NCBI RefSeq assembly: GCF_026965535.1
Contig: NZ_CP114039.1
Coordinates: 3,782,001 to 3,846,000 of the forward strand
Length of the DNA: 64,000 bases
Direction: 5' to 3'
Source: Corallococcus sp. NCRR
GTDB taxonomy: Bacteria > Myxococcota > Myxococcia > Myxococcales > Myxococcaceae
This document shows, piece after piece, positions 764 through 38,238 of this stretch (within the stretch, counting starts at the first letter, position 1; the number at the start of each line of letters is the position of its first letter). The notes beneath the pieces are model-generated. The model was not told the DNA's origin and made no database searches. It saw only the letters and a program-made list of their open reading frames with translations. Made by a program: the position numbers and the translations under genes.

Positions 764-3562
764 CTATTTCTCCTGCTTTCTCAGGCCCAGGACGCTGATG
801 GCCAGAAGGAGCGGGACGCACACGGCCATGAAGGCGACGTCCCTGAGGATGAGGCCCGCGCCCAATCCCTTGGTGAAGGCGCCCAGGCTGGCGTGCATGT
901 AATAGGTGGCCGGCCAGATGGAGCCGACGACCTTGGCGCCCCCCTGGAGCGTGGAGACCGGCTGTAGCAGGCCAGAGAACTGGATGGTCGGCACGATGGT
1001 CAGGATGGCCGTGACGAAGACGGCCGCCACCTGGCTGCCGGTGAAGGTGGACGTCACCATCCCAATGCCTGTCGTCGCCATGACGTAGAACAGCGCGCAG
1101 ACCACCAACGTCAGGAAGCTGCCCTTGATGGGGACGCCGAAGACGACCAGCGACAGCGCGGTCAGGATGAAGAAGTTGGCCATGCCGATGGCCACGTAGG
1201 GCAGTTGCTTCCCGAGCAGGTACTCCAGCCGTCCCGTGGGCGTGACGTAGAAGTTGATGATGGACCCCAGCTCCTTCTCACGCACGATGCTGACCGTCAT
1301 GAGGATGGCGGGGATGAGCAGCAGCAGCAGCGCCGGGACACTCGGCACGATGGAGTAGATGCTCTCGAAGGTGGGGTTGTAGAGGTAGCGCTCCTCGATG
1401 TTGGCCGTGTCCTTCCGCGCGCTGGCGGAGTGGAAGCCGCTCGCGGGATCCCGGAGCATCCGGTTGTGCACCCCCTGCACGTACTGCTCGACGGTGTCGC
1501 CACGGAAGGTCATGGCTCCGTCCACCTGCGCCAGCACCTCCGGGCCGGAGCCCCGGCGGAGGTCCAGGCCGAAGCGGGGCGGAAGCTCCAGCACCACCGA
1601 GACATCGTCTGACTGGAGCCTGCGGAGCGCTTCATCCGAGGACTGGGCGGGCGGCGTCGGGGCGAAGTAGGGCTTCGCCGCGCTGAACTGCTCCAGGTAC
1701 GCGCGGCTCTCGGGCGACTGGTCGAGGTCCAGCGCGGCATAGCGGATGTTCTCCACGTCGGTCGTGATGCCGAAGCCGAAGACGAGCATCAACACCGCGG
1801 AACCGATGAAGGCGAACGCCAGCCGCACTTTGTCGCGGAGGATTTGTTGGGTCTCGTTGGAGGCATACGCGAGCAGCCGGCCCACCCGCAGACGGAGGCC
1901 GGCCCGGTCCGTCCGGGGCGCGGCCGGAGCCTGGGGTGGGGCGGCTTCGGGCGCGGGGGCGGGGGGCGTGTCCTTGTCCTCGGCGCGGGCCTTCTCGGCG
2001 ATGGCGTCTTCCATGTAGCCGATGAAGGCCGTCTCCAGGCTGTCCGCGTTCCGGGACTCGATGAGCTTCTGGGGGCTGTCCGCCGCCAGCACCTTGCCCG
2101 CGTTCATGAGGGAGATGCGGTCGCAGCGCATCCCCTCGTTCATGAAGTGCGTCGTCACGAAGATGGTGACGCCCTGCTTGCGCGACAGGTCGATGAGCAG
2201 CTCCCAGAAGCTGTCCCGGGCGACCGGGTCCACGCCCGACGTGGGCTCGTCCAGGATGAGGATCTGCGGCCCGTGCAGCACGGCGACGGCCAGGGAGAGC
2301 CGCTGGCGCAGGCCCATGGGCAGGTCTCCGGCCAGCGCGTCCAGGTGCGCGCCAAGCCCGAACCGCTCGACCAGCTCGTCGATGCGCGCCTTCGCCTTGT
2401 CCGGAGGCAGGTGGTAGAGCCGGGCGTGCAGGAGCAGGTTCTGCCGGACGCTCAGCTCGCCGTAGAGCGAGAACGCCTGCGTCATGTAGCCCAGGTTCTT
2501 GCGCACCTCCATGCTGCCGGCGTCCACGGAGCTGCCGAAGAGCTTCGCCGTGCCCTCCGTGGGAGGCAGCAGGCCGGTCAGCATCTTCATGGTCGTGGAC
2601 TTGCCGCAGCCGTTGGAGCCCAGGAAGCCGAAGATTTCACCCCGCTCGATGGACAGGGTGACGTGGTCGACGGCGGTGAAGGTCCCGAAGCGGCGGGTCA
2701 GCCCGTGCGCCTCGATGGCCAGCTCCGCCTTGCCCGGCGCGCGGGGCGGGATGGTGATCTCCTTGTGGCCCCGGCGCTTCTCCTCGGGCAGCAGCGCGAT
2801 GAAGCACTTCTCCAGGTCCTGGGTCCCCGTGCGCGCCATCAGCTCCGCGGGAGACCCCGTCGCCAGCACGCGCCCCGCGTCCATGGCGACGATCCAGTCC
2901 CACTGCTGGGCCTCGTCCATGTACGCCGTGGAGATGATGACGCTCATGCCCGGGCGCCCGGCGCGGATCTCGTCGATGAGGGTCCAGAACTGCCGCCGGG
3001 AGAGCGGATCCACGCCGGTGGTGGGCTCGTCGAGGATGAGCAGGTCCGGGTCGTGCACCAGCGCGCCGCACAGCCCCACCTTCTGCTTCATGCCGCCGGA
3101 GAGCTTGCCGGCGGGGCGCTCCGCGAATTTGCCCAGGCCGGTGGCCGCGAGCAGCTCCGGGACGCGCACCTTGCGCTCCTCGGGGGACAGCCCGAAGAGC
3201 CGGGCCATGAAGTCCACGTTGTCGTAGACGCTGAGCTCCAGATAGAGGTTCTTGCCCAGGCCCTGGGGCATGTACGCGACGCGCGGCCCCACGTCGCGCC
3301 GGTGCCGCGCGTCCGCGATGTCCCCGTCCAGGACCATCACGCGCCCCTGCTGCATCTTCTTGGCGCCCGCGACCAGGGCCATCAGCGTGGACTTGCCCAC
3401 GCCGTCAGGCCCCACGATGCCCACCCGGATGCCGCTGGGGACGTCGAGCGAGAGGCCGTCCAGCGCCACGGCCTTGCCGTAGCGGTGGGTCACGTCCTGG
3501 ATGGAGACCACGAGCCGGCGGGTGGAGCCGGCGGGCGCCCCTGGAGACACGGATGAGACCAT
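764..3562 (-). CDS. RbbA-like fused double ABC ATPase / ABC-2 permease
   Basis: 932 aa. The first ATPase has Walker A GPDGVGKST at residues 51-59, signature LSGGMKQK and Walker B LLILDEPTTGVD. The second has Walker A GSNGCGKST near residue 315 and Walker B ILILDEPTSGVD. A Pro/Ala linker leads to a membrane domain from about residue 575 with the ABC-2 motif REKELGSIINFYVTP. This is the RbbA/YhiH architecture (E. coli RbbA is about 911 aa). It sits between the HlyD adaptor (25-nt gap) and a second permease (2-nt gap), which indicates one export machine. E. coli RbbA was described as ribosome-associated, but context here favours export. Confidence 0.9.
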   Translation of the reverse strand: MVSSVSPGAPAGSTRRLVVSIQDVTHRYGKAVALDGLSLDVPSGIRVGIVGPDGVGKSTLMALVAGAKKMQQGRVMVLDGDIADARHRRDVGPRVAYMPQGLGKNLYLELSVYDNVDFMARLFGLSPEERKVRVPELLAATGLGKFAERPAGKLSGGMKQKVGLCGALVHDPDLLILDEPTTGVDPLSRRQFWTLIDEIRAGRPGMSVIISTAYMDEAQQWDWIVAMDAGRVLATGSPAELMARTGTQDLEKCFIALLPEEKRRGHKEITIPPRAPGKAELAIEAHGLTRRFGTFTAVDHVTLSIERGEIFGFLGSNGCGKSTTMKMLTGLLPPTEGTAKLFGSSVDAGSMEVRKNLGYMTQAFSLYGELSVRQNLLLHARLYHLPPDKAKARIDELVERFGLGAHLDALAGDLPMGLRQRLSLAVAVLHGPQILILDEPTSGVDPVARDSFWELLIDLSRKQGVTIFVTTHFMNEGMRCDRISLMNAGKVLAADSPQKLIESRNADSLETAFIGYMEDAIAEKARAEDKDTPPAPAPEAAPPQAPAAPRTDRAGLRLRVGRLLAYASNETQQILRDKVRLAFAFIGSAVLMLVFGFGITTDVENIRYAALDLDQSPESRAYLEQFSAAKPYFAPTPPAQSSDEALRRLQSDDVSVVLELPPRFGLDLRRGSGPEVLAQVDGAMTFRGDTVEQYVQGVHNRMLRDPASGFHSASARKDTANIEERYLYNPTFESIYSIVPSVPALLLLLIPAILMTVSIVREKELGSIINFYVTPTGRLEYLLGKQLPYVAIGMANFFILTALSLVVFGVPIKGSFLTLVVCALFYVMATTGIGMVTSTFTGSQVAAVFVTAILTIVPTIQFSGLLQPVSTLQGGAKVVGSIWPATYYMHASLGAFTKGLGAGLILRDVAFMAVCVPLLLAISVLGLRKQEK

Positions 3563-9249: not shown

Positions 9250-11318
9250 CTACTGTCCCAGCACGACGCGGAAGATGCGCTCGTTGCTGTTGTTGGGGAT
9301 GCTGTCCTTGTCACCCTGGTTGGTGGTGGTCAGCCAGAGGTTGCCGTCCGGGGTGGGCTCCACGGTGCGCAGCCGGCCGTAGGTGCCGACGAAGAACTGC
9401 TGCACGTTGGTCAGGCTGGTGCCGCTGATGACCTCCCGGTAGAGGCGCGTGCCGCGGGCGCAGGCCACGTAGAGGACGTCGCGCACCACCGCGATGCCGG
9501 AGCACGAACCGTCCGCCGTGGAGTAGGTCTGCTTCGGCGCGATGTATCCGGCCGTCGCGCAGCCCGAGCCGCCCTGGGACACCGTGCCCTCGCAGTTGGG
9601 CCAGCCGTAGTTGCCGCCCTTCTGGATGAGGTTGGTCTCATCCATCACGGAGTTGCCGAACTCCTGCTCCCACAGGCGACCCTGCGAGTCGAAGGCCAGC
9701 CCTGCGGGTTGCGGTGGCCGTAGCTCCACACGTAGTTGCCGAAGGGGTTGTCGGACGGGACGGTGCCGTCCGCGTTGAGGCGTAGCACCTTGCCGGCCAG
9801 GTTGTTGATGTCCTGCGCGTAGGCGCCGTTCTGGGCATCCCCGGTGGACGCGTAGAGCTTCCCGTCCGGGCCGAAGCGCAGGCGACCGCCGTTGTGGAAC
9901 TTGTTGCGGCCGATGCCCTGGAGCAGCACCTGGAGCGACGCGGTGTCGAGGGCGCCGTTCTCATACCGCAGCCGCACGATGCGGTTGTCGGTGGGGGAGG
10001 TGTGCATCACGTACAGCCAGCGGTCGGTGGAGAAGGTGGGGGAGAGCGCCAGCCCCATCAGGCCGCCCTCGCCGTCGGTGCTCTGCACGTTGGGGACGGT
10101 GCCCACGGACGTCTTCTGACCCGTCGCCGGGTCCAGGCGGATGATGTTCTGAGCGTCGCGGCGGCCGTAGAGCACCGTGCCGTCCGGCAGGTTCACCAGG
10201 CCCCACGGGATGTCCGTGTCGGTGGCGACCTGGATGACGGAGCACACGGCGTTCGCGCAGGCCTGGCCCGTGGTGACCGTCACGGAGGCGCTCTGGGCGG
10301 ACGCGTTGCCCTGGGCGTCGCGGGCGAGCACGGCGTAGGTGTAGGCCGTGTTCGCGGACAGGCCGCTGTCGACGAAGGCCGTCCCCGGAGGAGCGCCGGC
10401 CACCGTGCCAATCTTCACGCCGCCCCGGAACACGTCATACGCGCTCACGCCCACGTTGTCGGTGGACGCGGTCCAGTTCACCGTCACGCTGGTTCCGGAC
10501 GCGGTGGCGGTGACGCCGGTGGGGACGCTGGGCGCCTGGGTGTCCGCCTGGCATTGCGGCACGGTGATGGAGAGCGTGGCGCTGCCCTGGGAGACATTGC
10601 CCACCGCGTCCCGCGCATTCACATACAGGCCCCAGGTCACGCCGGGGACCAGGGTCAGCCCGGTGGACACCGAGGCGCCGGAGACGGACTTCATCAACTG
10701 GCCGTCATGGTAGACGTCGTAGAAGGCGACGCCCTGATTGTCCGCGGACGGCGACCACGACAGCGTGGCCGAGTTGCACGTCACGTTGGACAGCGCGAGC
10801 CCGCTGGGCACGGTGGGCGCCTGGGTGTCGGCCGGAAATGACCACTGCTGGTTCGTCTGCGCGTTGCAGGTCCAGACGATGACCTTCGAGCTGTTGGTGG
10901 TGGCCTGGCCGGACACGTCGAGGCACAGCGAGGTCGCCGTGTGGATCACCGCGCCGCTGGTGTTGCGGACCCACCGCTGGTTCGCCGTCCCATTGCAGGC
11001 GGCGATGACGGCCCGCGCCCCGGAGTTGGCGGTCTCCGGCTGGACGCACCACGAGCCACCGAACGCGCGCAGCTCGCCTTCCGGCGTGAAGAGGAACCGC
11101 TGGTTGTCCTGGCTGTGGCAGTCATAGATGTGGAGCTCCTGCCCCGGCGTCTGACTGTTCTGCGCCACATCGAGACAGCGGCCGGACTGCACGCTGATGA
11201 GCCGTGAGCCGGCGACCACCGCGGCGGTCTGTGTCTGGAGCTCGGGGTCGTTCTCCGGCTTCCCTTCGCAAGCAGTGACGGTGACCAGGACTCCGGCCAA
11301 CAGGTAACGCACATTCAT
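9250..11318 (-). pseudogene. Lectin-FN3-glucose/sorbosone dehydrogenase, one frameshift near 9700
   Basis: Starts at ATG 11318 with a lipobox VTAC. In order: ricin-type beta-trefoil lectin (QxW-like repeats NQRFLF, NQRWV, NQQWSF; residues about 35-165), two fibronectin type III domains, then a PQQ-type sugar/sorbosone dehydrogenase propeller. The frame breaks in the motif YGHRNPQG|LAFDSQGRLWEQEFG: the first frame runs YGHRNPQGWPSTRR and stops at 9645, while the next frame resumes with LAFDSQG and continues to the stop at 9250. One missing C around 9697-9703 explains this exactly. Either a recent inactivation or an assembly error. Everything downstream (NYGWPNCEG, VEPTPDGNLWLTTTN) is well conserved. 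Confidence 0.85.
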
Positions 11319-22311: not shown

Positions 22312-22327
22312 CTCGGAAGCCCTTCTG

Positions 22328-22402
22328 GGAAGTAGTGGGATTCGAACCCGAGGCCCGCGTGTTTTTGAGCGCGGCGCATCTGCCAGGTTGGGTCATTCCG
22401 GC
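22328..22402 (-). pseudogene. Degenerate Leu-type tRNA (CAA-like loop), cassette A
   Basis: Aligned base by base with the intact tRNA at 37695-37769. 5' GCCGGAA, D-arm CCCAACCTGGCAGATGCG, anticodon stem CCGCG/CGCGG and T-loop GGGTTCGAATCCC are kept. However, the anticodon loop is CTCAAAAACA (10 nt), the variable loop shrinks to 3 nt, and the 3' strand (TACTTCC) does not pair with the 5' acceptor strand. The 3' end appears replaced after the T-loop, as expected after recombination at a tRNA end. It may still be an RNA, but not a normal tRNA. Confidence 0.6.
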
Positions 22403-22424: not shown

Positions 22425-22499
22425 TCGGGATGACTGGATTCGAACCAGTGACCTCGCGCGTATGAGGCGCACGCTCTCAACCAGCTGAGCTACATCCCG
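22425..22499 (-). tRNA. tRNA with CAT anticodon on a Pro-like body, cassette A
   Basis: 75 nt, full cloverleaf: acceptor CGGGATG/CATCCCG with C1-G72, discriminator A, D-arm GCTC...GAGC, anticodon loop CTCATAC (anticodon at 22462-22464), T-arm ACTGG/CCAGT. C1-G72 plus A73 and the 3' half match bacterial tRNA-Pro, and the copy at 37797 differs by only about five substitutions and one indel but has anticodon CGG. CAT would be read by MetRS or, if lysidinylated, IleRS. A gene caller would say tRNA-Met. Confidence 0.8.
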
Positions 22500-22537
22500 T
22501 TGGGTTGGAGTCCTCGAGGGAGGACCCGGACATGACG

Positions 22538-22569
22538 GAGGCCGGGTCCCCCCTCGGGAGCCCGGCCTC
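22538..22569 (-). terminator. GC-rich hairpin after peptide A
   Basis: Stem GAGGCCGGG...CCCGGCCTC between the peptide stop and the tRNAs. The same element occurs in cassette B at 37914-37945. No long T-run follows, so it may pause or process rather than terminate. Confidence 0.6.
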
Positions 22570-22609
22570 AGTCCATGCGCGTCCCGGGGTTACCGGGTGG
22601 CGGCGTGGG

Positions 22610-22717
22610 TCAGGTGCCGGGCGGACAGCCGTGGAACGAGGCGATGGCCAGGTCCATGCTGTCGGGAGTGGGCTCCATGTCGGTGGGGCTCGGCTTGTCG
22701 CTCTTCGTCATGGGCAT
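22610..22717 (-). CDS. Short peptide A (35 aa), conserved C-terminus
   Basis: ATG at 22717 overlaps the phosphatase stop as TGATG; a second ATG at 22711 (MTKSDKP...) is better spaced from AAAGGAG. The N-terminal half is hydrophilic, rich in Pro/Asp/Thr. It ends DLAIASFHGCPPGT-stop. The paralogous peptide at 37986-38096 ends ELATASFRGSAPGT-stop, and both precede the same hairpin and tRNA pair. Pattern [DE]LAxASF[HR]GxxPGT. The conserved end with a diverged start is unlike leader attenuation and looks like a functional tail. No family recognised. Confidence 0.7.
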   Translation of the reverse strand: MPMTKSDKPSPTDMEPTPDSMDLAIASFHGCPPGT

Positions 22718-23343
22718 CACACTCCTTTCGCGGGGAGCAGGGACGCAGCGGACCCTCCGTCCTGACAGAGTTGCTTCCGCCAGCCCCGTTTTTCGATGCA
22801 CCGGACGTTGTCCACGTCCGCGAGCGTCTTCAGATACCGGCCCAGGTCGAGCAACTCCGTGTCGTGCGCCTCGCCCTCGTATTCGCGGACGTAGATGGCG
22901 TTGCCGTGGTTGTGGATGCACTTGGCGGGCGTGTCATCGACAATCAGGACGCGCTCCAGCCGGTAGCCCCGCCGCTTCAACTTGCGCAGCTTCTTGACCC
23001 AGCCGTAATGCACCTCCGGATCGAGGAACCCGTCCCGCTGGACGCTGGCCCGGTCGAGCCCATACGTGCACCGGCTCCGCCCCCAGACGAAGTCCAACTC
23101 GAGTTCCGGCGGGATGATCCGCTTCACGAGCTCCGCCACGTACTTGTCGGCCCCCGCCGACCAGATGGCCAGCCGGAATCGGGTGGCGCACTCCCGCAGG
23201 AAGGGCTCCAGGTGCGGACGCACGTGGACGAAGTAGTTCAAGGCCTGGAAGTCCGCCTCCCGGGCCAGGGGCTTCTCGCTTGCGTGGACCAGGGTCTCAT
23301 CCAGGTCCAGGATCAACAGGATGCTGTCCGTGGGCGCCGTCAC
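22717..23343 (-). CDS. FCP1/NLI-interacting-factor-like HAD phosphatase
   Basis: 208 aa from GTG 23343 with GGGGGAT upstream. HAD motif I LILDLDETLVHA (DxDET), then YFVHVRPHLEPFLRECATRFRLAIWSAGADKYVAELV (motif II Ser), the Lys motif in YGWVKKL, and motif III VLIVDDTPAKC. This is the FCP/SCP Ser/Thr phosphatase subgroup of the HAD superfamily, common in eukaryotes and myxobacteria. No DNA- or membrane-binding part. Its stop overlaps the start of peptide A, so the two are co-translated; the peptide or the tRNA products could be its partners, which is unproven. Confidence 0.92.
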   Translation of the reverse strand: MTAPTDSILLILDLDETLVHASEKPLAREADFQALNYFVHVRPHLEPFLRECATRFRLAIWSAGADKYVAELVKRIIPPELELDFVWGRSRCTYGLDRASVQRDGFLDPEVHYGWVKKLRKLKRRGYRLERVLIVDDTPAKCIHNHGNAIYVREYEGEAHDTELLDLGRYLKTLADVDNVRCIEKRGWRKQLCQDGGSAASLLPAKGV

Positions 23344-23401
23344 CGGTGGATCCCCCGCCCGGTGACGACGCCGGATGGCTTCCGAAAATGACGACGCGGC
23401 G

Positions 23402-24031
23402 TCACTGCACGCCGGGCGCTCGGAACACCTGTCCGTTGCGGCCTTCCAGCACGAGGCTGGCCTCATCCGAGCTGCCCACGCGCAGCTCCACACGCGGTTG
23501 TCCACGGCGGTCCACCAGGAGCAGGCCGGGTGAGCCCTCCTCATCCGCGCCCAGGATGGCGCGGGGCCGGCCCGTCACGTCCGCCAGCTCCAGCCTCGAC
23601 GAACCGTCCACCTGGAGCCCCACGGAGAACAGCTCCGCGCCTCCGGACTTGGACAGCGTCAGGCGCGGCGCCTCGTCCGAGAACACCATCAGCTCCGCCA
23701 GCGACTCGCCTTCCGCCGTGGAGAAGCGCAGGCGGGGCGAGTCGTCCTCGCCCACGCCCAGCAGCGCCCGGGGCCGGCCTTCGCTGTCGTTCAACACCAG
23801 CGCCGCGCCGCCATGTCGGTTGGCATCAAAGCTGGCCCGTGTGCGCCCCGTGGCGTCCTTGAGCACCAGCCGCGACGCGACCAGCTCTCCTGCCTGCGAC
23901 CGCGGCGCTTCATCACGCAGTGCCGCGGTTCCCAGTCCCGCCCCGGCCAGCACGAAGGCCGCGAGGGTGAGGCCCTGCCACCGTCGGAGCCGGCCTTCCA
24001 GCCGCTCCATGCGCGCGTCCAGTGAGTCCAT
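23402..24031 (-). CDS. Membrane-anchored beta-repeat protein (copy 1)
   Basis: 209 aa from ATG 24031. A short charged coiled-coil start (MDSLDARMERLEGRLRRW), one membrane helix (about 20-40), then repeating beta-strand units of the form LVLKDATGRTRASFD / LVLNDSEGRPRALLG / LELADVTGRPRAILG / LLVDRRGQPRVELR. A paralog with the same layout lies at 35595-36266 beside cassette B. Function unknown. Anchored in the membrane with the repeats outside, by the helix position. Convergence of both copies on tRNA cassettes may reflect linked transfer. Confidence 0.75.
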   Translation of the reverse strand: MDSLDARMERLEGRLRRWQGLTLAAFVLAGAGLGTAALRDEAPRSQAGELVASRLVLKDATGRTRASFDANRHGGAALVLNDSEGRPRALLGVGEDDSPRLRFSTAEGESLAELMVFSDEAPRLTLSKSGGAELFSVGLQVDGSSRLELADVTGRPRAILGADEEGSPGLLLVDRRGQPRVELRVGSSDEASLVLEGRNGQVFRAPGVQ

Positions 24032-25368: not shown

Positions 25369-26019
25369 TCAAGGCTGGGGGTGCCACCACAGCCCCTTCA
25401 GTCCCGCCTCCTCACACGCCTGCCGCGCTTCCTCGGTGTAGCAGTAGAAGGCCAGCTCGGGGACGAAGAACACGGGCGGGAAGCCTCCGGGTGGAGGGTG
25501 GAGCACGAGCGGCTCGGCATCGTCATAGCCCAGCAGTTCTTCTCCGCACTGGTGGAAGGGCACGCCCTTCACGAGGGTGCGCTCCCGGTCGAGGCAGTGG
25601 GTCCGCTCCAGCAATTGGAGGATGACGAAGTCCTCGTTCTTTAGCGCAGGGTCCGTCACCGAATGCCAGGTCCGCCTTCGGGGGTATCCGCTGTACACGA
25701 GGTGCTTGATGCGTTCCGCGTAGATGACCGTGGGGATGAGTCGGTGGCGGAACGGTCCCACCGATTCGAGCACGCGCACCATGCGCCGGGAGAGCAGCAA
25801 CCACCCCATGGACGTGGTGCACAGGTGGTCGCGCCCGGCGATCCACTCCAGGTTGCCGTAGTACTCAATGACCCCGGGCATGCCCTGCTGGGGCTGATCG
25901 CCGATGTCGGGGTCGAAGAACGTCACGTCCTCGAAACCGTCGAACTCGATGAGATGGGCGTCGTAGATATCCGCATTCTCCTTGGCATGGGAGACGTCCG
26001 TCGACAGTGCATACATCAT
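25369..26019 (-). CDS. Probable immunity protein for the AHH toxin (DUF1629/Imm43-like)
   Basis: 216 aa soluble protein whose ATG overlaps the toxin's stop (ATGA at 26016-26019). This tight coupling is the normal toxin-immunity arrangement. Sequence features (YDAHLIEFDGFEDVTFFDPDIG, TTSMGWLLLSRRMVRVLESVG, ERTHCLDRERT) look like DUF1629-type immunity proteins that are abundant in myxobacteria; that family call is by eye and tentative. Acts in the cytoplasm of the producer by binding the nuclease domain (inferred). Confidence 0.75.
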   Translation of the reverse strand: MMYALSTDVSHAKENADIYDAHLIEFDGFEDVTFFDPDIGDQPQQGMPGVIEYYGNLEWIAGRDHLCTTSMGWLLLSRRMVRVLESVGPFRHRLIPTVIYAERIKHLVYSGYPRRRTWHSVTDPALKNEDFVILQLLERTHCLDRERTLVKGVPFHQCGEELLGYDDAEPLVLHPPPGGFPPVFFVPELAFYCYTEEARQACEEAGLKGLWWHPQP

Positions 26020-28013
26020 GTGGTGTGTGACTCCCCATGGGAGCGCAGCTCCAGCAAGGCCAGCTTCCTCCCCGTGAGCACCTTACCGCCGCGCTGCTCC
26101 TGGATCACCTTGATGGCCGGCTCCTTCAAGCTCCCGGATTCGATGGCCTGACGAAGCTCGTTCTCGACCTTGAGGATGGCTTCCTCAATCACCTGCGGCG
26201 TCCAACTGGAGGCCGGTCCCTTCATGCGCAGCTTACTCAATGCGCGATCGAGCCTGGCGTTCACGAAGTTGCTGTAGAAGGGGTGGCTTCCCGAGTGGAT
26301 GAGCTGGCCCTCCACGTTGAGCCCGGAGTGCATGTCGAGGATGTTCGACCCACGGTCAATCGTGTAGCCCTTGAGCCGCTCCATGGCCATTCGTATCAGC
26401 GGGTGGCTCTGGGCGACCCCGTCGGGGATGAGGTGGTGCATGGGATGACCGGCGGAGAGCCGGACCTCCGCCGCCGCACGCGCCGCCGGACCCTGGGTCT
26501 TCTCCACCCAGTCCAGGTAGTTCTTCCGGTAGCGAGTGAAGACGCTCAGGCGGGGTGTGCCCTTGCCGACCTTGAGCACCACCAGCCCGTCATCGGTCAC
26601 CGTGAGCGCCCCATACTCGTCACCCAGGGCCTTCCCGTCCGGACGGCGCAGCCGGTAGGGCTGGGAACCGCTGCTCAACTTCTCCAGACGGTAGCCAGCG
26701 GCCTGGAGCTCTTTCTTGAACGCGTTGAACTCAGGCGTTCCTTCCTGCGGGATGCGGCGTCCGACGAAGTCCTTGAGCTTGTCCCAGTTGGGGAGCTTCT
26801 CCAGCAGCTTCTCCAACTCGGCGTCGCTGAGCGTGCGCTCGGTCAGGGGGGGCTCGGGCTCCGGCGTGGAGGATCCGCCCTCTTTGACAGCCTTTGACAG
26901 CAACGGCGCGCCGGAGCCCCAGGGATTGAAGGGAAGTGGAATGGATGGAGCGGCGGTGATGGAGCCCGGCTGGAAGACAGGCACGCCCGCGTAGGCACCG
27001 CTGGGGCCCGCAGCCGCCATCATGTAGATGCGGGGCGGGGTGATTCTCACGGACGTCATCAGCTTGAGCCCACGTCCCGCGTTGGTCTTCACGCCCAACA
27101 GCGCCAGCGCCGCCATCGCGATGCTCACCAGCATCCGGAGGAAGGACTTGCTGGCCTCCTTCAACTTCTCCTGTGAGCCATTTGCCTCCCACGCCTGGAT
27201 GAGCCACAGCTGCGCGTGCTTCAGGGCCTCCCCTCCGGCCTCGATGAGTCCATGGGCTCCGAACGCCGCCAGGCCCAACTGGATGAGCGCCGCCGCCAGC
27301 TGCCCCACGCCGGTGGGCGTCGCCGCCAGGAAGGTGGACAGCGCCTCCGCGGCGATGAAGCCCACCACCATCGCGGAGATCTCCAGCCAGTTGTCCAGGA
27401 TGGCCTTGCCATACTGGCCGGTGACCTCTCCGAAGTACCGGTCCGCCTGCCTCACGGACGCGAGGACGTCCTCCAGGTGCCGGGCGGCCTTGCGCGCCTG
27501 GACCATCGCCTCGTGGGTGATGGAGCCGCTCGACACGACTCCCTGGAGCTGGTTGGCGAAGGCGATGCTCACCAGCCAGATGCGCTCGCCCGCGACCAGC
27601 CGGACGTCACCGTCGACGCTCTGAACCCCCTTTCGGCCACTCTTCACGTTCACGTGATGAATGACATTCTCGTAGAAGCGCAGGTCCCGCCCCGGCTGGA
27701 TGGCCTGCCGGTAGATGCGCGCGGCGATGGGCTCCAGGCGGTCCCCCGGACGCACCAGATAGAGCGTCGCGGCGGGCTCCGGCAGCTGGGTCGTGATGCG
27801 CAACGTCTGTATGAAGCCTTGCAGCAGGTATCCCCCCACCACGGTGGAGACATAGGACCAGCCGGGCGCCTGGGCATGGTCCCGGATGACGCTCACTCGC
27901 GTTCCCGGAGGCAGGGGCGCCGGAGTCAGGCAGGCTGAGCCCTTCATCTCCGCGGGGAGCGTCCGCAGGTTCGCGCCATCCCCGTGGTCGATGAACCCGA
28001 GCTGAATCGTCAT
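26016..28013 (-). CDS. Polymorphic toxin: SH3 and LysM-like N-terminus, AHH nuclease C-terminus
   Basis: 665 aa. The N-terminal SH3 (residues about 12-75) and LysM-like segment (LYLVRPGDRLEPIAARIY, about 84-130) can bind peptidoglycan or a delivery structure. The middle holds two hydrophobic stretches (about 215-255 and 290-305) and a Pro-rich linker. The C-terminus has GHPMHHLIPDGVAQ (HH at 526-527) and a later SGSHPFY His, the signature of AHH-family HNH nucleases. So it is probably a secreted antibacterial DNase. Immunity gene follows with 4-nt overlap. No secretion gene is nearby, so the route is unknown. Confidence 0.88.
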   Translation of the reverse strand: MTIQLGFIDHGDGANLRTLPAEMKGSACLTPAPLPPGTRVSVIRDHAQAPGWSYVSTVVGGYLLQGFIQTLRITTQLPEPAATLYLVRPGDRLEPIAARIYRQAIQPGRDLRFYENVIHHVNVKSGRKGVQSVDGDVRLVAGERIWLVSIAFANQLQGVVSSGSITHEAMVQARKAARHLEDVLASVRQADRYFGEVTGQYGKAILDNWLEISAMVVGFIAAEALSTFLAATPTGVGQLAAALIQLGLAAFGAHGLIEAGGEALKHAQLWLIQAWEANGSQEKLKEASKSFLRMLVSIAMAALALLGVKTNAGRGLKLMTSVRITPPRIYMMAAAGPSGAYAGVPVFQPGSITAAPSIPLPFNPWGSGAPLLSKAVKEGGSSTPEPEPPLTERTLSDAELEKLLEKLPNWDKLKDFVGRRIPQEGTPEFNAFKKELQAAGYRLEKLSSGSQPYRLRRPDGKALGDEYGALTVTDDGLVVLKVGKGTPRLSVFTRYRKNYLDWVEKTQGPAARAAAEVRLSAGHPMHHLIPDGVAQSHPLIRMAMERLKGYTIDRGSNILDMHSGLNVEGQLIHSGSHPFYSNFVNARLDRALSKLRMKGPASSWTPQVIEEAILKVENELRQAIESGSLKEPAIKVIQEQRGGKVLTGRKLALLELRSHGESHTT

Positions 28014-35109: not shown

Positions 35110-35584
35110 AGTCCTGAGGGCGTCCGCTTCGAGTTCGCCGTACGAGCCGGGCAGCTCTACCGGTTCGTCTGCACGGCCACCATGCTGTCGGGGTTCCGGG
35201 TCCAGTTGCTCGACGCGACGTCGCTGGAGCCCAGGGGTGAGGCCCTGACCTCCAATGAGACGAAGCAGGCTGACTTCTTCTGGACGGCGGACGCGGAGTA
35301 CACCTTCGAGGGTTTACTGGAGACCCCCGACGACGTGGACGCCTGGCGGATCTCCATTCCCAGGGACGAAAGCGGCTCCAGCAGCCCCTACTACTGCGCG
35401 ACCACGGTGATGGATTCCCAGGGCCAGGTGCTGGAGACAGACCTGCCAGGCGACAGGAATGGCGTCATCTACAGGCGAACATTGGCGGCGGGCAGGGCCG
35501 GTTCACGTTCGCGGCGCGGGATGGCGATCAGGTGGTGAGCACGCTGGGCATCGCGCCGGATGATGTGCCGGAGGCGGGATTCGA
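35110..35584 (+). pseudogene. Remnant of a secreted repeat-domain protein
   Basis: Frame after a TGA at 35107 reads PEGVRFEFAVRAGQLYRFVC..., a PPC-like beta domain (VQLLDATSLEP, TAAEYTFEG-like WTADAEYTFEG, LETPDDVDAWRI). It lacks any start and signal. Near 35485 the coding sense shifts frame (GQGRFTFAARDGDQVVSTLG continues in another frame). The remnant then runs into a 26-bp copy of the tRNA 3' end at 35559-35584. So it is broken at both ends and frameshifted. Probably a larger surface protein cut by the insertion of the neighbouring element. Confidence 0.7.
35559..35584 (+). repeat. att-like direct repeat, distal copy
   Basis: 25 of 26 bases match 37688-37713 in the same orientation: 7 nt of tRNA trailer plus 19 nt of tRNA 3' end (GATGATGTGCCG[G]AGGC...). 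No tRNA body adjoins this copy. Typical footprint of integration at a tRNA 3' end. Confidence 0.75.
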
Positions 35585-35594
35585 GCGTGAAGTG

Positions 35595-37460: not shown

Positions 37461-37652
37461 GGTGCTCCCCTGGAGCAATGGTCACGACCCAAGCGGCGGT
37501 GACAGTCAGTGCGCGGCGAGGGCAGAAAATAGCACGAGGGTCACTGAGTGCGTGCCAGGGGGCGGGAGACGAAGCCGCGACCTGGGTGGTGGGAAACCCC
37601 AAGCAAGACGCGCAGTTGTCCGCCATTGCGCACATGCTGCTAACGGAATGAG

Positions 37653-37687
37653 AAAAGGCCCAGCAATCCGTTGGGATTGCCGGGCCT
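37653..37687 (-). terminator. Rho-independent terminator of tRNA cassette B
   Basis: Stem AGGCCCgGCAATCC / GGATTGCtGGGCCT with CAAC loop on the minus strand, followed by TTTTCTC. It begins 8 nt beyond the 3' end of the Leu-type tRNA. Confidence 0.9.
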
Positions 37688-37713
37688 GATGATGTGCCGA
37701 AGGCGGGATTCGA
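37688..37713 (+). repeat. att-like direct repeat, tRNA-proximal copy
   Basis: Covers 7 nt of trailer and the last 19 nt of the Leu-type tRNA. Partner at 35559-35584 (one mismatch). The 2.1 kb between carries only the amidase and membrane-protein genes; no integrase is present, so any mobility would need help in trans. Confidence 0.75.
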
Positions 37714-37769
37714 ACCCGCAACCTCCGCGTTCTGAGCGCGGCGCCTCTACCAAGTTGGGCTACCCCGGC
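37695..37769 (-). tRNA. Leu-type tRNA, anticodon CAG, without long variable arm
   Basis: 75 nt. Acceptor GCCGGGG/CTTCGGC (two G-U pairs), discriminator A. D-arm GCCC-AACTTGGTAGA-GGC has the short stem and extra loop bases typical of class II (Leu) tRNAs. Anticodon arm CCGCG-CTCAGAA-CGCGG, anticodon CAG; T-arm GCGGG-TTCGAAT-CCCGC. The variable loop is only AGGTT, whereas bacterial tRNA-Leu has a long hairpin there. CCA is not encoded. All stems pair, so it looks functional but atypical. Confidence 0.78.
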
Positions 37770-37796
37770 GGGGTGTGTCTTTGATTGGATTTGAAG

Positions 37797-37872
37797 TCGG
37801 GATGACTGGATTCGAACCAGCGACCTTGCGCGCCCGAGGCGCACGCTCTCAACCAGGCTGAGCTACATCCCG
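37797..37872 (-). tRNA. tRNA-Pro (CGG), cassette B
   Basis: 76 nt, complete cloverleaf. C1-G72 and A73, anticodon loop CTCGGGC with anticodon CGG (37834-37836) and G37, all proline identity elements. D-arm GCTC...GAGC. Nearly identical to the CAT tRNA at 22425-22499. First of the two tRNAs in this unit, 27 nt before the Leu-type gene. Confidence 0.85.
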
Positions 37873-37913
37873 ATGCTTGGAGAAACCATTTGAAGAAAGA
37901 CCCGGACACGACA

Positions 37914-37945
37914 AGGGCCGGGTCCCCCTTCGGGAACCCGGCCCT
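37914..37945 (-). terminator. GC-rich hairpin after peptide B
   Basis: AGGGCCGGGTTCCC pairs with GGG(G)ACCCGGCCCT around a short GAAGG loop. Same place and nearly the same sequence as 22538-22569 in cassette A. Followed by TTGTCG on the minus strand, so a weak terminator or processing element. Confidence 0.65.
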
Positions 37946-37985
37946 CGTCACGCCGTCCCGGGGTCACCGGGGGCGGGTGCGAGCG

Positions 37986-38096
37986 TCAGGTCCCGGGCGC
38001 ACTGCCACGGAAGGATGCGGTGGCCAGCTCCAGGTTCTCCAGAGAGGTCACCTTCGTGGCGGGGCGCTGCGGGTTGAGCTCATTGGGGTTCTGCAT
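37986..38096 (-). CDS. Short peptide B (36 aa), conserved C-terminus
   Basis: ATG at 38096, with AAAGGAGGG ideally spaced upstream; an earlier ATG directly on the ribosome binding site is too close. Reads MQNPNELNPQRPATKVTS... and ends LELATASFRGSAPGT-stop. The last 16 residues share nine identities with peptide A (22610-22717), while the N-terminal halves differ. It is transcribed from its own promoter between 38100 and 38238 (divergent gene at 38239). No signal peptide. Could be a precursor peptide for a modified product or a substrate for a tRNA-dependent enzyme; nothing in the window proves either. Confidence 0.75.
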   Translation of the reverse strand: MQNPNELNPQRPATKVTSLENLELATASFRGSAPGT

Positions 38097-38238
38097 GGGG
38101 CATCCCTCCTTTCTGGGGAGTAATGACGGAGCGCTGAATTCGTTCCTGACGGGTCGGCGCAAGGTGAGGGGAAAACGCGGGGACTTCCGTTCAAGGGCAG
38201 CGGTGCATTTTCCGCCGCCTTTTCCTGGAGCCTCCCCC

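Follow-up and report, generated by a model that had tools for sequence, protein, structure and literature searches.

Amino-acid operon attenuators of the trp, his, leu and phe type consist of a leader ORF rich in the relevant codons, mutually exclusive hairpins and a terminator in front of the regulated genes. T-box riboswitches sense the charging of tRNAs and control transcription as well, while PEARL systems bring together a small peptide and an involvement of tRNA. Arrays of tRNA genes, finally, are described for mycobacteria, phages and plasmids (PMC5966550, PMC6409571), and those of mycobacteria also have HNH genes (PMC5966550).

In the window, by which we mean the whole stretch of 64,000 nucleotides of Corallococcus sp. 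NCRR that was analysed, two cassettes share features with these systems. Like the attenuators, they have a short leader ORF with matching codons and a terminator-like hairpin before the regulated genes. However, these genes are the very tRNAs that read the leader codons, and many amino acids are addressed at once. In addition, segments 2 and 3 form the putative terminator, the putative antiterminator strand extends over the stop codon of the leader, and the cassettes make up a family of dispersed copies with differing codon sets. In contrast to the T-box, for which no match was obtained at the Rfam gathering score, the cassette is proposed to sense through translation of its leader, and its output are tRNA genes. 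The large members of the family have the clustering of many tRNA genes and an HNH endonuclease gene nearby in common with the mycobacterial, phage and plasmid arrays (PMC5966550, PMC6409571), while each window cassette holds only two tRNA genes; the myxobacterial arrays are chromosomal and often comprise only 1–5 tRNAs. Neither of the two papers mentions a leader peptide, and the four plasmid tRNA arrays examined contain no comparable leader. Unlike PEARL systems, the cassettes come without a linked or required ligase, and their match at codon level points to decoding.

Attenuation is known and tRNA arrays are known, but the literature searched held no case in which the two are united and a leader would sense the tRNAs of its own array. 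The original prediction, which had called the arrangement undescribed, is upheld in so far as no description of leader-controlled tRNA arrays was found in open-licence literature, and our claim of novelty is limited to that scope. From the sequence comparisons set out below we consider it likely that ribosome-mediated transcription attenuation controls small arrays of accessory tRNAs. If so, attenuation would act on tRNA genes themselves, with leader codons reporting the supply of the tRNAs made. It would show how bacteria can sense the loss of a particular tRNA, would make the function of the puzzling redundant tRNA arrays testable, and would provide natural sensors with which ribosome stalling can be followed codon by codon, together with a source of bacterial tRNAs with highly reduced D-arms and of short-armed Leu tRNAs.

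Two cassettes in the Corallococcus window

The two cassettes, B at 38151–37650 and A at 22767–22326, are encoded by the minus strand and follow the same order: a promoter-like site, a ribosome binding site, an ORF of 35–36 aa, a strong GC-rich hairpin and two tRNA genes. In cassette B, the promoter-like site CGTCAGG-N16-CGTC (38125–38151, motif match) precedes a ribosome binding site region recognized from its sequence (AGAAAGGAGGGATG, 38101–38114), behind which the leader ORF of 36 aa starts (MQNPNELNPQRPATKVTSLENLELATASFRGSAPGT, 37986–38096). Its Leu codons are CTC, CTG, CTG and CTG, and it carries one CCG; the tRNAs downstream, Leu(CAG) and Pro(CGG), read CTG and CCG, respectively. The end of the ORF together with the stop codon forms segment 1 (CGCCCGGGACCTGACGCTCG, 37980–37999), a putative antiterminator strand by its complementarity to the 5' arm of the main hairpin. 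A variable first hairpin (37950–37978), assigned by folding and position, is followed by the terminator-like hairpin with segments 2 and 3 (37910–37949), which is family-wide and rests on a 19-sequence alignment and the covariance model R1. Segment 4 (GTGTCCGGGTC, 37899–37909) is predicted to be able to pair with segment 3, as judged from duplex energy against shuffled sequence. The genes of tRNA-Pro(CGG) (37797–37872; ARAGORN and Rfam RF00005, 63.6 bits) and of a class I tRNA-Leu(CAG) of 75 nt without the long variable arm (37695–37769; ARAGORN and Rfam, 60.8 bits) come next, and an intrinsic terminator with a T run, recognized from sequence, lies 3' of the last tRNA (37650–37686).

Cassette A is built likewise on the minus strand. 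Its promoter-like site reads TGTCAGG-N15-CGTC (22742–22767, motif match), and its leader ORF of 35 aa (MPMTKSDKPSPTDMEPTPDSMDLAIASFHGCPPGT, 22610–22717) has ATG where the Pro/Leu cassettes of relatives carry CTG. Here, too, the ORF end (segment 1, 22604–22623) is complementary to the hairpin's 5' arm and thus a putative antiterminator strand. The terminator-like hairpin with segments 2 and 3 (22534–22573) matches R1 with 81.9 bits, and segment 4 (TGTCCGGGTCC, 22522–22532) was assigned by its pairing with segment 3. The first tRNA has a Pro-like body and a CAT anticodon (22425–22499; ARAGORN and Rfam, 67.7 bits). The Leu-like tRNA gene at 22326–22402 has decayed; it is 75% identical to B over 55 nt and was called by neither ARAGORN nor Rfam. 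Two tRNAs per copy had been expected: this holds for B, with its Pro(CGG) and its Leu(CAG) lacking the long arm, but not for A, where the anticodon is CAT and the second gene decayed. Cassette A is partly degenerate and the anticodon of its first tRNA has changed, and therefore the two copies are unequal. Since A and B match with 77% identity over 361 nt (E 1.6e-64) and a DNA search found the cassette in 16 of 16 Corallococcus genomes, it is not a product of chance.

Other features of the window lie close to the cassettes. A gene for an NLI-interacting-factor-like (FCP1-type) phosphatase (22717–23544) ends directly at the leader start codon in cassette A, and its reading frame crosses the promoter region of that leader. 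The 3' end of tRNA-Leu in cassette B recurs on the same strand 2.1 kb downstream as a copy of 33 nt with 91% identity (35552–35587), and a similar partial copy occurs near the cassette in genomes G016 and G017; it is perhaps the scar of an attachment site. A 665-aa protein with an AHH nuclease domain of the HNH/ENDO VII superfamily (26016–28013) is possibly polymorphic-toxin-like.

A multi-copy element of the Myxococcaceae

With R1, the covariance model of the hairpin region built from the 19 aligned sequences, 60 of the 195 genomes of the phylum have matches at E ≤ 1e-4; all of them are Myxococcaceae, usually with several matches per genome. We limited the counts to this threshold because weaker matches include ordinary terminators; those below about 50 bits are partly of this kind, for example behind a cold-shock-like gene. 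For comparison, 123 cassettes with leader and array were extracted. The cassette is a multi-copy element of the Myxococcaceae, and the peptide-hairpin-tRNA unit, originally proposed from two copies on one strand, is borne out as duplicated and conserved. In a scan of named genomes it was found in Corallococcus, Myxococcus, Pyxidicoccus, Archangium and Hyalangium. Corallococcus, Myxococcus and their relatives are predatory bacteria. Array size ranges from one tRNA to about 26 (26 in L088); in the other genera the nearest tRNAs form arrays of two to about 26, and these too are preceded by a short ORF and this hairpin. The source genome holds a third cassette outside the window, for Trp (G000:C1:3727637), whose tRNA was not found by the Rfam tRNA model.

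Arrays lacking the ORF were sought among the relatives. The search rule left 31 clusters without an extracted leader. In most of them, either the tRNAs are of the Ser type and follow an HNH gene, or a leader can be seen that the rule missed; about three truly lack a leader ORF. Almost every non-Ser array examined has one, and the original prediction largely withstands this check.

The dispersed copies could suggest a selfish or mobile element with tRNA genes as cargo or attachment sites, as had been considered from the beginning, and the large arrays stand beside an HNH endonuclease gene as mycobacterial tRNA arrays do (PMC5966550). However, cassette B and its neighbours are syntenic across Corallococcus genomes (L092, L093 and the window), and the phage, plasmid and viral contigs searched contained no cassette, the best record covering 16% of the array. 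Mobility would also leave the codon match described below unexplained, and we regard this reading as improbable.

The phage and plasmid matches to the array were dismissed as ordinary tRNA similarity. One viral contig with the cassette pattern was rejected, as the hairpin is absent, and matches of the ribosome-binding-site pattern outside the myxobacteria (Amycolatopsis, Methylobacterium and others) lack the hairpin too and were taken as chance. A record titled Comamonas sp. KCTC 72670 (L259, L268) carries a Myxococcus-type cassette and is probably a mislabelled assembly.

Large arrays (L082, L088, L162, L164, L166 and others) as well as the Trp cassette of the source genome (L131) are followed by a conserved HNH endonuclease gene (PF14279/PF01844). 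In other genera, odd Ser tRNAs with hairpins of their own come after this gene and form a cluster apart from the array. These Ser clusters sit behind the HNH gene, not behind a cassette-type leader; array and Ser cluster together cover about all 20 amino acids.

The leader ORF and its hairpin

A short ORF that looks translated, with a ribosome binding site, was found over the 123 cassettes. Coding constraint, on which the original prediction depended, is present in part. With pN/pS values of 0.47–1.7 across eight groups, the amino acid sequence is weakly constrained, whereas the frame, the ribosome binding site, the start, the position of the stop and the codons that match the tRNAs are conserved. 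The C-terminus had been described as more conserved than the N-terminus, and this is correct: in the main Corallococcus group, pN/pS is 0.29 in the second half of the ORF vs. 0.90 in the first.

Selection on the peptide tail had been concluded from this. The tail is indeed conserved, but its last codons form a conserved RNA strand complementary to the terminator-like hairpin. Over 122 cassettes, the complementarity of the leader to the 5' arm of the hairpin has a sharp optimum at the end of the ORF (mean −19.8 kcal/mol vs. about −12 elsewhere). Thus the conserved PG tail is at least partly an RNA element, and encodes the strand that would pair with the 5' arm.

In the group of cassettes A and B, segments 1 and 2 pair with −19.4 compared to −13.3 for shuffled sequence; in the PDSC and PVPC leader types, with the sequence range used, shuffled sequence pairs equally well. 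For the segment behind the hairpin, pairing with the 3' arm is better than that of shuffled sequence, in the A/B group with an E3:4 of −27.5 vs. −14.4 with a shuffled segment 4. When the ORF end was masked in folding, as by a ribosome at the stop codon, the mean terminator probability at equilibrium rose from 0.76 to 0.99, with a shift above 0.2 in only a quarter of the cassettes. Given this modest effect, the switch would have to be kinetic. A strong hairpin precedes the tRNAs in all cassettes and is followed by a T-rich stretch in most genera; the Corallococcus hairpins have no T run and therefore may not be efficient intrinsic terminators. Because of the modest change at equilibrium and the lack of this T run in Corallococcus, the switching itself is something that we only infer.

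A leader would be expected to look like this, with little constraint on its amino acids but with its frame, start, stop and sensor codons conserved. We suggest that the peptide serves regulation as a leader and is not itself a product: the conserved features look like the signature of an attenuator leader rather than that of a bioactive or tRNA-extended peptide. The functions first proposed are wrong or unsupported.

Codon usage of the leaders

The residues of the leaders follow the tRNAs behind them. For 16 of 18 amino acids, leaders show a higher frequency if their array includes the cognate tRNA. For example, the residue occurs in 93% of leaders with the cognate tRNA vs. 25% of those without it for Cys, and the corresponding values are 80% vs. 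19% for His, 75% vs. 20% for Trp and 53% vs. 7% for Tyr. Where its own tRNA is present, Thr is rarer in the leader, and Asn gains hardly at all. When arrays were shuffled among peptide groups, the amino acid match gave z = 6.5 over 23 groups (p < 0.001) and z = 3.9 over 9 groups; with only 5 peptide groups it is insecure (worst p 0.22), the cassettes being related by descent.

The match extends to synonymous codons. The share readable by the leader's own array is 0.67 where 0.54 is expected (z = 6.6 over 41 groups, p < 0.001; z = 3.3 over 11 groups). GAA makes up 0.67 of the Glu codons in leaders with anticodon TTC but 0.08 with CTC, TTG 0.31 of the Leu codons with anticodon CAA but 0.03 otherwise, and CCC 0.65 of the Pro codons with GGG compared to 0.29 with CGG. 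CGT/CGC are likewise paired with anticodon GCG and GTC with GAC, while the permutation test detected no synonymous match for Ala. By position, the last three residues show no enrichment (ratio 1.05), the ratio is 1.3–1.75 at residues 7–24 before the stop, and in the N-terminal part the match is weaker but present.

Codons and tRNAs also change together. In Corallococcus Trp cassettes of the type at G000:C1:3727637, the leaders of the three arrays that contain a Tyr tRNA besides Trp all read CRWRDFASYRL with the Tyr codon TAT, while three of five leaders of Trp-only arrays carry F, F or L for Y (TTT or CTT). Where the Tyr tRNA of Tyr-type arrays is lost or decayed, the Tyr codon of SYRN is gone from four of five leaders. 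A few loci break the rule, namely two Trp cassettes and L179, which keep Tyr codons without a Tyr tRNA. Copy A and its counterparts in two relatives, L091 and L118, have the CAT anticodon, a lost or decayed Leu tRNA, and ATG for CTG in the leader. At the level of sequence, the leader codons match the anticodons of their own array down to synonymous codons.

This bears on the idea of a PEARL-like, tRNA-dependent extension, with the peptide as scaffold and the tRNAs as donors of residues. A small peptide with a conserved tail does stand beside dedicated tRNAs, which have the host discriminator in 413 of 527 cases. However, chemistry on a finished peptide could not see a synonymous-codon match; a function of the finished peptide is thus hard to invoke, and the match points to ribosomal decoding. 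Furthermore, the peptide sequence is weakly constrained, and the LanB/PEARL N-domain PF04738 is absent from G017, G040, G054 and G070, all of which carry cassettes. There is no LanB-like peptide aminoacyl-tRNA ligase near the window cassettes, as already stated in the prediction, nor any other ligase gene. On the synonymous match, the weak constraint and the absence of PF04738 in these four genomes we rejected PEARL or other peptide chemistry, which we hold to be extremely improbable.

A proposed model of attenuation

The proposed attenuation would work as follows. With charged tRNAs plentiful, the ribosome would reach the leader stop and cover the end of the ORF (segment 1), hairpin 2:3 would form, and transcription would stop before the tRNAs. 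If a tRNA read by the array became scarce, the ribosome would stall upstream in the leader and leave segment 1 free to pair with segment 2, and 3 with 4; the array would then be transcribed, and the newly made tRNAs would relieve the stall and close the loop. Because the leader codons are those that its own tRNAs read, the arrangement suggests that a cluster whose tRNAs run short detects this and switches itself on.

Most cassettes also share a predicted promoter motif. GTCAG-N16/17-CGTC was found in 101 of the 123, its CGTC part usually 26 nt upstream of the start codon, and resembles the ECF41 sigma promoter TGTCACA-n16-CGTC (PMC3426412). Genome-wide, TGTCAGG-N14-16-CGTC was found at 18 sites vs. 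5 for the reversed control; among the other sites examined, with eight left out, none has a tRNA within 1 kb.

One might think of a response to amino acid starvation, in which the arrays are induced, for instance, in fruiting-body development and alter codon-specific translation. Uncharged tRNA is the signal to which trp/his-type attenuators respond, and a predicted promoter motif common to most cassettes would suit such a response. However, an extra tRNA is useless if the amino acid is missing, and the arrays span nearly all amino acids, mostly with G/C-ending codons, which makes such a role rather unlikely.

Divergent accessory tRNAs

The canonical tRNA set of the source genome is complete without the cassettes and contains, among others, a class II Leu(CAG) and a Pro(CGG); the cassette tRNAs are therefore extras. 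The arrays cover nearly all amino acids, with tRNAs mostly for G/C-ending codons whose anticodons the host largely covers already. Host Leu tRNAs measure 82–86 nt (86 nt for the class II Leu(CAG)), whereas those of the arrays lack the long arm. Among 527 distinct array tRNAs, 53 have D-loops of ≤6 nt and 100 an unusual linker, compared to 0 of 47 host tRNAs in both cases. Trp tRNAs with D-loops of only 3–4 nt occur among the array tRNAs. The discriminator base is that of the host isoacceptor in the 413 mentioned above and the T-loops are conserved, but U33 is lost in 83. C33 replaces it in 15 of 16 Asp tRNAs, in Leu(GAG) and in most Gly(GCC) tRNAs, and the Tyr anticodon loop reads ctgtaga in 27 of 27 array tRNAs, ctgtaaa in the host. 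From conserved discriminators and T-loops on the one hand and U33 losses on the other, the array tRNAs look chargeable but divergent.

Such changes would fit an escape from tRNA-cleaving enzymes; phage tRNAs are argued to evade nucleases by changes of the anticodon loop (PMC10264068). The arrays could accordingly be read as backup operons whose divergent tRNAs resist anticodon nucleases or tRNA-cleaving toxins, with the attenuator as damage sensor, a reading that we put forward tentatively. The repetition of anticodons covered by the host, the altered anticodon loops and the short D-loops speak for it. On the other hand, the changes could be drift in rarely used tRNAs, the nuclease is only hypothetical, and the loss of U33 may impair decoding. 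This reading supplies a purpose for the attenuator and does not replace the mechanism. The use of the cassettes might then be, though we would not press the point, to replace host tRNAs cleaved or inactivated, e.g., by toxins, with divergent ones that escape the attack. A second, largely complete and divergent tRNA set, split into units that would be self-sensing, may amount to a codon-resolved response to tRNA damage in the Myxococcaceae, in which each unit would monitor through its leader codons the supply of exactly its own tRNAs and replace them on stalling.

Two observations concern other loci. Away from the cassettes, the source genome has a second, low-scoring Asp(GTC) tRNA (45 bits; L077, G000:C1:2532736-2532807). 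In L090, cobalamin riboswitches lie at 9730–9925 and 3006–3240, one of them directly behind a Glu-Asp-Gly-Leu-Leu tRNA array.
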